A DNA stretch of 64,000 nt from the NCBI RefSeq assembly GCF_000496735.2, contig NZ_AYLO01000040.1, forward strand, positions 1 through 64,000, given 5' to 3'. This DNA is from Methyloglobulus morosus KoM1. GTDB lineage: Bacteria > Pseudomonadota > Gammaproteobacteria > Methylococcales > Methylomonadaceae. A model generated the notes under the pieces. It was not told where the DNA came from. It did no database searches and was given only the letters and a program-made list of their open reading frames with translations. The position numbers and the translations under genes are program-made. Below are positions 6,767-63,843 of this stretch, piece after piece (the first letter of the stretch is position 1; every line of letters begins with the position of its first letter).

Positions 6767-7612
6767 ATGTACCACGCAACAAAATTACCTATAGTCATCA
6801 AAACTATAGTGTTATTAACGGGTTTGCTTGCTGCAACAGAAGCTATGGCTGCTACGCCCTTATTTGATAGTAATTGCGCCACTGGTTGCCACGGTGATGG
6901 TAATACTGGAACCAATGTTGAGGGTGTCATTACTCCTCCCGTGCAGGATCGCTCACTTACTGGCATTAGAAATTCCATTATAACTGAGCCTTTGCCTGTG
7001 CCGGAACACTTTGCTACAAGGTTAATTTATGATTTTGGGGGGTATACAGACCAATTCTTTGTTGACATTGTTGCTGAACTTAACCCGCCTTCAGGTTGCA
7101 TACCTCCGCAGGAATTGGTCAATGGCATTTGCACGATACCGACAACACCAAGTTGTACCGCACCCCTAGTTTTAGTCAATGGCATTTGCGCCACCCCACC
7201 ACCACCAGAGTGTGATGACAGCGCCAATACGGCACTTTGTGTCAACCAACTGCACCAATTTGGCAGCTTGGGCAGCGCGGAAACGGCTGCTGACATCTAT
7301 AAGGCCATCTGCGCTAAACCGGCAGTGGCTATCCGTGCGACCATATCAGGGTTGACTGCGGACACTATGGTGAGTGTCCAGGTATCCAAAGGCGGAGTTT
7401 CTACGCCCGTCATCGTGGATGCCACCCCTGGTGACGGTATTGTCAGCGGCAGGCCGGCCCAATTAGCCAAAGGCCCTGGCGTTTATAAGGTAAAGATCAA
7501 TAAATATAACGCGAATGTGCCTGGCATCGTACAGTACGATGCCGCAATAAGCTGCCTGGATAAGAGAAGTAGGCGGGTAGGTGCCAATGTTGTCATCATG
7601 AGGAACCAGTAG
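6767..7612 (+). CDS. Secreted protein with CX3CH heme-like motif and beta-sandwich domain
   Basis: 281 residues with a gagggga ribosome binding site. The signal peptide ends near residue 29. Residues 31-106 look like a small mono-heme cytochrome c, but the motif is C37-A-T-G-C41-H42, one residue longer than CXXCH, and no Met follows within the domain to act as sixth ligand. Residues 111-148 are a Cys/Pro linker with two repeats of the pattern C-x-x-P-x-x-LVNGIC. Residues 163-265 match the domain of the secreted protein at 1929. Thus it looks like an electron-transfer or heme-binding head tethered to the domain found alone upstream. The heme could be covalently held with altered geometry, or the motif may be degenerate; both remain open. 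The upstream AT-rich leader and the repeat at 6656 suggest its own promoter. Confidence 0.7.
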   Translation: MYHATKLPIVIKTIVLLTGLLAATEAMAATPLFDSNCATGCHGDGNTGTNVEGVITPPVQDRSLTGIRNSIITEPLPVPEHFATRLIYDFGGYTDQFFVDIVAELNPPSGCIPPQELVNGICTIPTTPSCTAPLVLVNGICATPPPPECDDSANTALCVNQLHQFGSLGSAETAADIYKAICAKPAVAIRATISGLTADTMVSVQVSKGGVSTPVIVDATPGDGIVSGRPAQLAKGPGVYKVKINKYNANVPGIVQYDAAISCLDKRSRRVGANVVIMRNQ

Positions 7613-7751
7613 CACCGAACGGGCCATTACGATTGGCATTGGGAACAACTTGTCAGGCACTAAAACGGAGCGGCTTTTGTTAAGGCAGTGGTGAGATATT
7701 TTATGCTGTTGCATCCGGTTGTCATCCTGCCAAAGCAATATACCTCTGGCC

Positions 7752-7784
7752 TACGGCGATGAGGATTTGTCGCCGTATTTTTTT
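7752..7784 (+). terminator. Rho-independent terminator
   Basis: A perfect 8-bp stem (tacggcga 7752-7759, tcgccgta 7770-7777) is followed by seven T residues. It closes the transcript of the CX3CH protein gene. Confidence 0.85.
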
Positions 7785-7816
7785 GTTATATAAGTCGCCA
7801 ACTATTTTATAAGCCC

Positions 7817-8683
7817 ATGTATACAAAATTTCCTCTGTTAACGCGTACTTGCCTACTTCGGCATTTGTTGGGCTTAATTATTGTTGGGTTGGCTGGGGCG
7901 GGCATGGCTGCACCAGCGGAAAAGCCTATGGCTGAGTTAGTCATCAGCACCAACAAGGGCAGTGAACTACAACTGGAAGTTAGGCAGATACCTATGGCGG
8001 AAGTGCTGAAAGCGATTACAGCAAAAACTCAGGTGCCGATCCATTTTTCGGTATTACCTGATGGTTTGGTGACGGCGACGTGTGTGGGTTCAACTTTAAA
8101 GCAGGTCTTGGAATGTCTACTGGAAAGAAGGGCTGATTTGGTTGTCCGTTACCCACATATACCCGATAAGTCGGAGAGCAAAGGGCAATTGGCGGAGGCT
8201 TGGGTGCTGGGGTCGCGCCAGGACGGTACGGCCTGTTCGCTAACTGGCAATACGCTGCCCGAGCAAAGCCAGCAAGTGTCCGATACGACAGCGAAACCGA
8301 ATCCTTCCGACACCCTGCTCAAAATGGCGAAATCGAATAATGCTGCCGGACGGGCAGAAGCGATTGGAGCTTTATTGGCGGCTGGCACAAAAGACGACCC
8401 TAAAATTCAGGAAATGCTGGAAGATGCAGTCCATGACGAAGACGCCAATGTTCGGGCGCAAGCCCTGTCGACGTTGACGCATTGGAGTAACGATACGGAA
8501 AGCATTTCGGTGGCGCTTAGTGAAGCCATCCACGATGGCTCGGCAGATGTCCGCCTGATGGCAGTGGACGGCATTACGGACGATGTTGACCTGCTGCAGC
8601 AAGCGGTTAATGACAGTGACGAAGTCGTGCGTACAACGGCTATTACAAAACTAGAATCCCTTATGAAGCAAGCAGCACAGTAA
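7817..8683 (+). CDS. Exported HEAT-repeat protein with STN-like N-terminal domain
   Basis: 288 residues. A signal peptide occupies residues 1-34 (after an arginine-containing n-region, ending GMAA). Residues ~50-115 resemble the short STN/secretin N-domain (LQLEVRQIPMAEVLKAI followed by strands). Residues ~165-285 are HEAT-like helical repeats, recognisable by the recurring D-x-x-V-R-x-x-A pattern (DANVRAQAL, SADVRLMAV, DEVVRTTAI). Such proteins are scaffolds rather than enzymes, here in the periplasm. Placement between the CX3CH protein and apbE suggests it assists assembly of the same envelope system, but no direct partner can be named. Confidence 0.75.
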   Translation: MYTKFPLLTRTCLLRHLLGLIIVGLAGAGMAAPAEKPMAELVISTNKGSELQLEVRQIPMAEVLKAITAKTQVPIHFSVLPDGLVTATCVGSTLKQVLECLLERRADLVVRYPHIPDKSESKGQLAEAWVLGSRQDGTACSLTGNTLPEQSQQVSDTTAKPNPSDTLLKMAKSNNAAGRAEAIGALLAAGTKDDPKIQEMLEDAVHDEDANVRAQALSTLTHWSNDTESISVALSEAIHDGSADVRLMAVDGITDDVDLLQQAVNDSDEVVRTTAITKLESLMKQAAQ

Positions 8684-61601: not shown

Positions 61602-62225
61602 ATGCACCCCAAATCATGCCATAAGTTGGAAGGCCAAAATCTAAGCTGCACACGCGACGACAGGGAATTATTTGCAGGCCTTGGGTTTGCTGTCCATCCA
61701 GGCCAGGTACTGTTACTGGAAGGCAACAATGGCAGCGGTAAGACTTCTTTATTACGAATAATCTGCGGATTTCGTGAGCCTGATACCGGCACTGTTTCAT
61801 GGGGTGAGGAAGCAATTCCGCATTACCAGTATTATTCGGATATGGCTTATGTCGGCCATTTGGACGGCATTAAAAAAGAATTGACGGTGTTGGAAAACTT
61901 AAAGCTGTCGCAGGCGTTGAGCCAATCGGGAAGGTTAACAATCCAGCAAGCATTGGACAAAGTTCGGCTATCGGGTTATGAAGATACCTTAATCCAAGCC
62001 TTGTCGGCAGGACAAAAAAGGCGTTTGTCACTGGCGCGGCTGTTGATTACCCACAATGTCTTGTGGATATTGGACGAACCTTTTACCTCATTGGACAAGC
62101 AAGGCATAACCCTGATGGAATCATTAATGGCCGAACATTGCGCCAATGGTGGCATGATCGTCATGACATCACACCATGACATTGACTTAAATGGCGTTGA
62201 TGTGCAGCGTATAAGGCTGTCTTGA
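61602..62225 (+). CDS. ccmA: Heme exporter ATPase CcmA
   Basis: 207 residues, the ABC subunit of the CcmABCD machine for cytochrome c maturation. Walker A EGNNGSGKTSLLRI, signature LSAGQKRRLSLARLL, Walker B LWILDEPFTSLD, and switch His in MTSHHD. Its TGA shares a base with the ccmB ATG. Confidence 0.94.
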   Translation: MHPKSCHKLEGQNLSCTRDDRELFAGLGFAVHPGQVLLLEGNNGSGKTSLLRIICGFREPDTGTVSWGEEAIPHYQYYSDMAYVGHLDGIKKELTVLENLKLSQALSQSGRLTIQQALDKVRLSGYEDTLIQALSAGQKRRLSLARLLITHNVLWILDEPFTSLDKQGITLMESLMAEHCANGGMIVMTSHHDIDLNGVDVQRIRLS

Positions 62226-62902
62226 TGGCTTTGTTTGATGCGTTTACGGCAATTGTTCGCCGCGACTTGGTATTAGCCTTGCGGCGGCGTTCGGAGTGTG
62301 CCAATCCCGTGTTGTTTTTTATCTTGGTTATTACCTTGTTCCCGTTGGGAATAGGGGCGCAGCCCAAATTATTGCAAGCGATTGCGCCTGGCATCATCTG
62401 GGTTTCGGCTTTGCTGGCGACGATGCTTTCCTTAGACAGCCTTTTCCGTTCCGATTTTGATGACGGCTCTTTGGAGCAGATTTTGTTAAGCCCCTATCCA
62501 ACATCCATCCTGGTTTTAGGCAAGATAACCGCCCATTGGTTGACGACGGGTTTGCCGTTGCTGATCGTTGCGCCGTTGCTCGCCGTTTTTCTAGGCCTGC
62601 CTAATCAGTCCTTAAGCATCTTGTTGTTAACATTAGCGTTAGGTACGCCCATATTAAGCTTGATCGGTGCAGTCGGCGTTGCCTTGACCGTAGGGTTGCG
62701 CCGTGGCGGCATGATCTTGTCTTTGTTGGTGTTGCCCTTGTACGTACCCGTCTTGATCTTTGCCAGCAATGCCGTCGAGATGGCGGGCAGCGGCTTGCCT
62801 GTGGCTGCGCAAATTAATATCTTGGTATCGATGCTATTGATGGCTTTGGTGTTGGCGCCTTGGCCGACGGCAGCCGCATTAAAAATGAGTATAAATTCAT
62901 AA
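62225..62902 (+). CDS. ccmB: Heme exporter permease CcmB
   Basis: 225 residues with six predicted membrane helices. Opening FDAFTAIVRRDLVLALRRR and LEQILLSPYP are family features. Starts at ATG 62225, overlapping ccmA by one base. ccmC, the usual next gene, is not present; an unrelated di-iron-type protein follows. Confidence 0.94.
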   Translation: MALFDAFTAIVRRDLVLALRRRSECANPVLFFILVITLFPLGIGAQPKLLQAIAPGIIWVSALLATMLSLDSLFRSDFDDGSLEQILLSPYPTSILVLGKITAHWLTTGLPLLIVAPLLAVFLGLPNQSLSILLLTLALGTPILSLIGAVGVALTVGLRRGGMILSLLVLPLYVPVLIFASNAVEMAGSGLPVAAQINILVSMLLMALVLAPWPTAAALKMSINS

Positions 62903-62949: not shown

Positions 62950-63843
62950 ATGACTTCTGGCAAATACCTTTCCGTTTTTACCTTGGCAACCAAACAGCAA
63001 AGAAAAGAGAATTTTGAGGATTACTGGCGTTTTACCCAGCAGCATGGTGGCGAGTTATACGAAGCAGAGCAAGATTTGGCAAAGAAACGTGCAAAACTCA
63101 AATATTTTAAGGATAACCCCGTCAAACTGCACAAGCCGCTGGTCGATCCTGATGCGTTTTATCGCAACTACATAGAAATGAAGGATGACCCTAAATCCCT
63201 GGATCGTCTTACCATAATGTTAACAGGTATGTACAAGTTTGCCCGGCATGAATGGGTAGGCATTAAAGGTGCTTGGGATGTCGTCCCCGATATGGCGAAT
63301 TCCCATTCGCTGGAAGATAAAATCAGCCGCATACATTTGGCCGAAGAGTTTTGTCATTGGCGCTTGTTTGATGAGATGTTGCGGACTTGTGGTTTAGATA
63401 AGGTTGAATGGATGCCCTTGTCACCGTGGAAAGAATGGGTTTACGAACAATTCCCTAAAGTTCCCGGTTTCTTGATGGATACACCGGCATTTGTCACTGA
63501 ATTGATGGGGGTCACCTATTATTTCCATTTGCATCGCTTGTTTGATGACATCTTGGCGGATGAGCCTGAAGTCCGCCAACGAATGAAAGAATTGTTGGAT
63601 GAAATCACTATTGATGAAGTGGCCCACGTAGGTCAGCGCAGAAATTTCATTGGGCCTATCGGTATGAAAATTTCAAAGTGGATGGTAAAGCCTTTATATA
63701 CCCTGTTCTTTAATGACATCCCTGAAGTTGGACAATTGTTCGATGTGAAGCAAATGATTAATGATGGCGAAGCCTTTGATTTTAATGAAGTGCCAGACTA
63801 TATGATCGAACGGACTTGGATACCTTCTTATTGCAAGGCTTGA
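62950..63843 (+). CDS. Putative di-iron ferritin-like protein
   Basis: 297 residues, helical, no signal peptide. The ligand set of a carboxylate-bridged di-iron centre can be placed in order: Glu101 (ARHEW), Glu133-x-x-His136 (EEFCHW), Glu184 (VTELMG), Glu223-x-x-His226 (DEVAHVGQRR). The spacing suits a four-helix bundle as in ferritin-like oxidases and oxygenases. The family is not recognised by name. It begins 47 bp after ccmB and may be co-transcribed; an oxygen-dependent reaction near heme/cytochrome genes is possible. Confidence 0.72.
   Translation: MTSGKYLSVFTLATKQQRKENFEDYWRFTQQHGGELYEAEQDLAKKRAKLKYFKDNPVKLHKPLVDPDAFYRNYIEMKDDPKSLDRLTIMLTGMYKFARHEWVGIKGAWDVVPDMANSHSLEDKISRIHLAEEFCHWRLFDEMLRTCGLDKVEWMPLSPWKEWVYEQFPKVPGFLMDTPAFVTELMGVTYYFHLHRLFDDILADEPEVRQRMKELLDEITIDEVAHVGQRRNFIGPIGMKISKWMVKPLYTLFFNDIPEVGQLFDVKQMINDGEAFDFNEVPDYMIERTWIPSYCKA

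Follow-up and report, generated by a model that had tools for sequence, protein, structure and literature searches.

Di-iron oxygenases catalyse C-H and N-H oxidations that rank among the hardest. In acyl-ACP desaturases, the metal ligands follow the order E / ExxH / E / ExxH, and a Thr lies three residues after the third Glu. In the R2 subunit of class I ribonucleotide reductase, the radical Tyr lies four residues after the His of the first motif. A set of four Glu and two His ligands is described for Mn/Fe proteins, as is the binding of a fatty acid by R2lox (PMC4118035), and one R2lox protein, GkR2loxI, has been reported as an alkane hydroxylase (PMC10867098). In AurF, CmlI and DnfA, a His located four residues ahead of the last Glu serves as a seventh ligand, and the di-iron enzyme DnfA of Alcaligenes oxidises hydroxylamine, yielding N2 (PMC9478400). 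Here we describe a gene, Q, whose product has the four-Glu, two-His set and is best explained, on the strength of its conserved ligands and predicted fold, as a soluble R2-like protein. Q is strongly conserved, has no name, and is nearly confined to methane consumers and some ammonia oxidisers, with signs of transfer between them. If active, Q would add a family of enzymes, together with a metabolic step that is so far unexplained and is shared by two groups of importance for greenhouse gases.

The window that we analysed is a stretch of 64,000 nucleotides from Methyloglobulus morosus KoM1 (contig NZ_AYLO01000040.1, positions 1 to 64,000). Q occupies positions 62950..63843 of the + strand and encodes 297 amino acids from an ATG start. 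A sequence-only reading of this DNA had singled out the ORF for its complete set of di-iron ligands, and all of these residues are where that reading placed them: E101 (codon at 63250..63252), E133-x-x-H136 (63346..63357), E184 (63499..63501) and E223-x-x-H226 (63616..63627), the last within a conserved block resembling DExAHVGQRRN. On the same strand, upstream of Q, are a gene for an ABC ATPase (61602..62225), which we read as ccmA from its position ahead of ccmB, and ccmB itself (62222..62902; Pfam CcmB, E 3.1e-78), which stops 47 bp before Q. The same reading had remarked that Q follows ccmB at the place expected for ccmC. Q does indeed come directly after ccmB, but ccmC has not been replaced: a gene that we read as ccmC (contig positions 63948-64715; Pfam Cytochrom_C_asm) comes next, after a gap of 104 bp and just past the window end, with CcmE and CcmF following. 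Hence, Q is an insertion, and ccmC is not missing.

Do the six residues represent a genuine metal site? By itself, the motif is weak evidence: when Q was shuffled 20,000 times, the order E / ExxH / E / ExxH with loose spacing arose in 2.2% of shuffles, and two ExxH motifs arose in 16%. However, all six ligands are invariant in an alignment of 38 close relatives with 71–91% identity to the window protein (38/38), and they are kept in 22 of the 23 sequences of a wider set with identity down to 51%. The lone exception is L131 (positions 7477-8427 of its stretch, genome G724), a decayed copy with Lys at 223 and Arg at 226 in place of E223 and H226; the same genome has a second, intact copy, L132 (7793-8695). 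In a third set, from which L131 was left out, the ligands are kept in 48/48. Invariant positions account for 14 of the 33 Glu and His residues in Q, and the probability that all six ligands would land among these 14 by chance is ~0.003. Comparison of Q with seven named relatives gave pS values of 0.76–0.90, such that synonymous sites are saturated, while pN is only 0.05–0.14, indicating strong purifying selection. We take the di-metal site to be real because of this conservation and the fold described below, rather than because of the motif alone. Q thus represents a real, conserved family for which the metal-site reading is well supported and metal binding is predicted.

AlphaFold models of Q had a pLDDT of 89.1 with the 38-sequence alignment, and a pLDDT of 95.1 and pTM of 0.92 with the 48-sequence alignment. 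The ligands sit mid-way along four long helices (residues 86-111 for E101, 121-146 for E133 and H136, 173-201 for E184, and 206-233 for E223 and H226), at distances from the shared turn of 10 and 12 residues in one helix pair and 17 and 17 residues in the other. From these helix positions and the structural look-alikes of Q, the six ligands are predicted to cluster. Q therefore has two features of the carboxylate-bridged di-metal (R2-like) superfamily, namely four conserved carboxylates and two His arranged as E-(n)-ExxH-(n)-E-(n)-ExxH and, in the predicted model, their location on the core of a four-helix bundle. Foldseek found no significant match to either model in the PDB (best E 0.14 for both; TM about 0.35 for the 48-sequence model). 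Among the non-significant matches, R2, R2lox and acyl-ACP desaturase chains ranked highly, and R2-type chains made up most of the top rows, the others including a few from Dps and ferritin. VIA-align, run on the candidates from Foldseek, gave R2lox 6f6f as the best match to the 48-sequence model (Z 14.3, rmsd 3.8, 220 residues aligned), and the best 50 matches listed were R2lox, ribonucleotide reductase R2 or ACP desaturases throughout. The first, 38-sequence model aligned best with a putative R2 (Z 14.1), and two of its listed matches came from bacterial multicomponent monooxygenase subunits. Helical bundles may reach a Z near 14 without kinship; nonetheless, the uniformity of the VIA-align list leads us to read Q as R2-like. 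AurF chains are absent from the VIA-align rows, and it may be that the comparison did not include any. BFVD structures gave no significant match to Q.

Q belongs to an unnamed R2-like family of more than 100 members that lies outside the families of Pfam and NCBIfam. The sequence-only reading had called the protein an orphan, a description that has to be given up given the distribution set out below. Nothing in Pfam scored above its cut-off against Q, nothing in NCBIfam matched it, and 23 members of the family gave only chance-level matches to NCBIfam. Searches of PHROGs and PADLOC found no match, and a PDB sequence search with Q and with profiles A1 and A2 returned only unrelated molecules (best E 0.59, 0.11 and 0.14, respectively). 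An hhalign comparison with AurF-like proteins, two further ferritin-like groups and a desaturase gave no match; with only 4, 4, 3 and 1 sequences in these sets, this negative result carries little weight. Among the open PMC papers listed by our searches, none described the family or its function. Conservation, predicted fold and family searches hence uphold the earlier view that a complete ligand set occurs in an unnamed family; where that view specified two irons, the metals could be Fe/Fe or Mn/Fe. DUF455 (PF04305), whose function is listed as unknown in Pfam, may be the nearest Pfam family on sequence grounds. It touches two members of the 23-sequence set, and its match to L140 is in register (residues 78-234, E 0.0028), but the score of 17.7 bits is well short of the cut-off of 34.3 and the model is not listed for the window protein. 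Acyl-ACP desaturases (FA_desaturase_2, PF03405) have the same ligand order as Q and are tied with R2lox within 1 Z unit (Z 13.3 for 4v0j). In contrast to these enzymes, Q has Gly187 at the position of the desaturase Thr (48/48), PF03405 is not listed for any of the 38 and 23 members, and hhalign of Q against the single full-length desaturase found nothing.

Q is nearly absent outside the Methylococcales and one family of ammonia oxidisers. Its own genome has one copy, a second stretch being at chance level (E 0.31). Contigs from named species yielded 37 loci in a scan that requires exact eight-residue patterns and so misses divergent members; 34 of these are from Methylococcales or untitled proteobacteria, and the other three are from Nitrosomonas sp. 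Nm84, Nitrosospira sp. Nsp14 and a Gloeobacterales MAG. With fragments counted, Q matches occur in 93 of 221 genomes of the order Methylococcales (87 near full length) and in 32 of 125 genomes of the Nitrosospira family of ammonia oxidisers (29 near full length). In the window's own family, 90 of 151 genomes have a match, 82 with a near-full-length copy. None of the remaining 397 genomes in the phylum sample has Q. The Nitrosospira order, sampled with 300 genomes, has Q in just two, both from the Nitrosospira family, and 321 genomes of the window's class yielded M. morosus itself, one chance-level stretch and one real relative from another family (G1214), in which all six ligands are present. 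Within the cyanobacterial class (116 genomes), Q is found only in the Gloeobacterales MAG. No relatives of Q were found in viral contigs, plasmids or phages, and a search of plasmids with a divergent member was likewise negative.

A tree of Q places the ammonia-oxidiser copies in two clades and the cyanobacterial copy on a single line, all inside the Methylococcales radiation. The branch that holds all of these copies is strongly supported (SH-aLRT 97), but the branches that would fix the direction have lower values of 81–88. This nesting suggests that Q has been transferred between methane oxidisers, ammonia oxidisers and a cyanobacterium, and the placement fits the transfer of a self-contained enzyme. 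Loss has also occurred repeatedly, as indicated by broken remnants of Q in several genomes, including G001, G074, G055 and G654. Matches to PF02461 (ammonia monooxygenase) occur in 67 of the 125 Nitrosospira-family genomes and in 19 of the 32 that have Q, and we saw no link between Q and the presence of ammonia monooxygenase across these 125 genomes. Draft assemblies often do not include amo, and hence this co-occurrence says little.

The neighbourhood of Q differs between groups. At 23 of the 37 named loci, with those clipped by contig ends taken as they stand, ccmB or ccmC lies within 1.3 kb of Q, and at 14 loci both lie within 700 bp. At 14/37, ammonia oxidisers among them, neither gene is nearby. 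The association with ccmAB that was suspected from the window is therefore seen at many loci but is far from general, and because of the loci where it is absent, we consider it weak evidence of function. In 8 of 20 ammonia-oxidiser stretches, folE (GTP cyclohydrolase I) is directly upstream of Q on the same strand, at a distance of 177–297 bp; Pfam identified the gene in L035, and in the rest it was recognised through clustering or BLAST. A membrane fatty-acid desaturase gene is located near Q at 3 of the 20 ammonia-oxidiser loci and is directly upstream in two of these; with gaps of 335 and 510 bp, the desaturase gene and Q do not form a tight operon. We saw no reductase or ferredoxin gene travelling with Q, and a scan of the ccmA-ccmF region for promoters and terminators gave no sites above shuffles. 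Since no neighbour is constant, it is probable that Q works without a dedicated partner and draws on a general electron donor. Nitrosomonas europaea has a self-sacrificing p-aminobenzoate synthase of the CADD type (PMC11965152). For this reason, and because folE adjoins Q in Nitrosospira, we considered a similar activity for Q; this was set aside since the CADD type has a heme-oxygenase-like fold, the fold of Q is R2-like in the models, and just 2 of 38 members show any match to Haem_oxygenas_2.

Could Q simply be a class I ribonucleotide reductase R2 subunit, or R2lox proper? These are its top structural look-alikes: the fold matches R2 with a Z of 13–14, and R2lox, which is of similar length (about 285), is the best structural match of all. 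However, Q has only 8% identity to R2lox over that match, neither the protein nor either profile finds these proteins by sequence in the PDB, and no ribonucleotide reductase model is present among the Pfam matches. Furthermore, the radical Tyr position is occupied by Phe140 in 48/48 sequences. R2 sequences without the radical Tyr do exist (PMC4118035), so Phe140 on its own does not decide against an R2; together with the other differences, it makes membership of either group highly improbable. We consider it very unlikely that Q is an iron-storing or peroxide-scavenging relative of ferritin or rubrerythrin. The superfamily fold is ferritin-like, one member touches Ferritin_2 (E 0.016), and in one genome (L168) a gene for a Fur-type regulator lies upstream of Q, but Q has about 300 residues and extra helices of the R2 type, and no ferritin is among the best 50 VIA-align matches, just as R2-type chains outnumber ferritins at the top of the Foldseek list.

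The host range of Q invites a different reading, that of an N-oxygenase or hydroxylamine-handling di-iron oxidase, which would work in the manner of DnfA or AurF in hydroxylamine-producing bacteria. The known conversion of hydroxylamine by DnfA favours this, as does the fact that AurF (PF11583), which has the same motif order, is the only Pfam model touched by most members: 37 of 38 and 18 of 23 have sub-threshold matches (best E 0.0016 and 0.00027, respectively). The window protein scores 15.6 bits and the best-scoring member, L168, 23.2 bits (E 4.4e-5), against a cut-off of 29.6. Yet these matches are out of register, with the first ExxH of Q aligned to the second ExxH of the profile, near position 189. 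The seventh-ligand His of AurF, CmlI and DnfA is Ile219 in Q (48/48), and hhalign with the AurF-like set fails. On these grounds we reject membership of the AurF family. Neighbourhoods read by eye also showed nothing like dnfB or dnfC next to Q, and most of the ammonia-oxidiser family is without Q. With the residue and profile evidence, these points leave a role in nitrogen chemistry unlikely. Participation in the assembly of cytochrome c or copper monooxygenases, as the position of Q between ccmB and ccmC might imply, seems to us improbable. The hosts of Q are rich in c-type cytochromes, and the ccm genes are frequent neighbours; against this, the ccm genes are missing from the vicinity of Q in more than a third of named loci, ammonia-oxidiser copies instead adjoin folE or a desaturase gene, and many Methylococcales are wholly without Q. 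The residues at positions 140 and 219 appear to speak against both a classical tyrosyl-radical R2 and a seven-ligand N-oxygenase of the AurF type.

By analogy, the likeliest role for Q would be that of an O2-activating oxidase or oxygenase. We propose that Q is probably an R2-like two-metal protein that activates O2 and oxidises an organic substrate, a mechanism modelled on R2lox, class I R2 and the acyl-ACP desaturases. E101, E133/H136, E184 and E223/H226, on their four long helices, would bind two metal ions, either Fe/Fe or, as in R2lox, Mn/Fe. Once reduced by electrons from an unlinked donor, the centre would take up O2 and form a peroxo or high-valent intermediate, which could then hydroxylate or desaturate the substrate. 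Several observations count against this proposal: the lack of a significant Foldseek match, Z values that helical bundles can reach by chance, the negative hhalign comparisons, the failure to see a reductase or ferredoxin gene travelling with Q, the loose spacing of the desaturase gene, and the presence of folE or ccm neighbours at loci other than those with a desaturase gene. As to the substrate, our tentative first guess is an acyl or lipid molecule, as for R2lox and the ACP desaturases; fatty-acid binding by R2lox, the alkane-hydroxylating R2lox and the occasional desaturase neighbour all point this way, and we regard it as possible rather than probable. Type I methanotrophs have unusual monounsaturated fatty acids, and we know of no report of the desaturase responsible. 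A more speculative extension, and a long shot, is that Q founds a new family of R2-like oxygenases exchanged between methane and ammonia oxidisers, one that modifies lipid or acyl groups for membranes densely filled with particulate methane or ammonia monooxygenase, these fatty acids being one example.

Other features of Q and its surroundings are also of interest. Near the C-terminus is a motif, W290-x-P292-S293-Y294-C295 (63817..63834, + strand), whose W, P, S, Y and C are invariant in the alignment (48/48), yet the tail beyond it varies. The ORF upstream of the decayed copy L131 matches an integrase core (Pfam rve) below threshold. Remnants of Q in Methylococcales are L144, L145, L146, L148 and L149 (from G074, G001, G029 and, twice, G055); the two copies in G055 are alike, and each has an internal TAG. 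The remnant in G654 is from an ammonia oxidiser. In Methylovulum (L006, L009, L019 and L020), a gene of ~250 aa on the opposite strand lies between ccmB and Q; the one scanned, in L019 (2922-3683), has no Pfam match. At L133 and L135 (G705 and G693), the start of Q is at most 5 bp from where a gene for an ABC-2 type exporter permease ends, an apparent operon. Lastly, at L037 (7998-11160), Q of the Gloeobacterales MAG is in a stretch of low GC content (0.43 versus about 0.50–0.53), where it is closely followed by metallo-beta-lactamase, nitrilase and PhyH genes, as if in one operon, with folE 3.1 kb further on.
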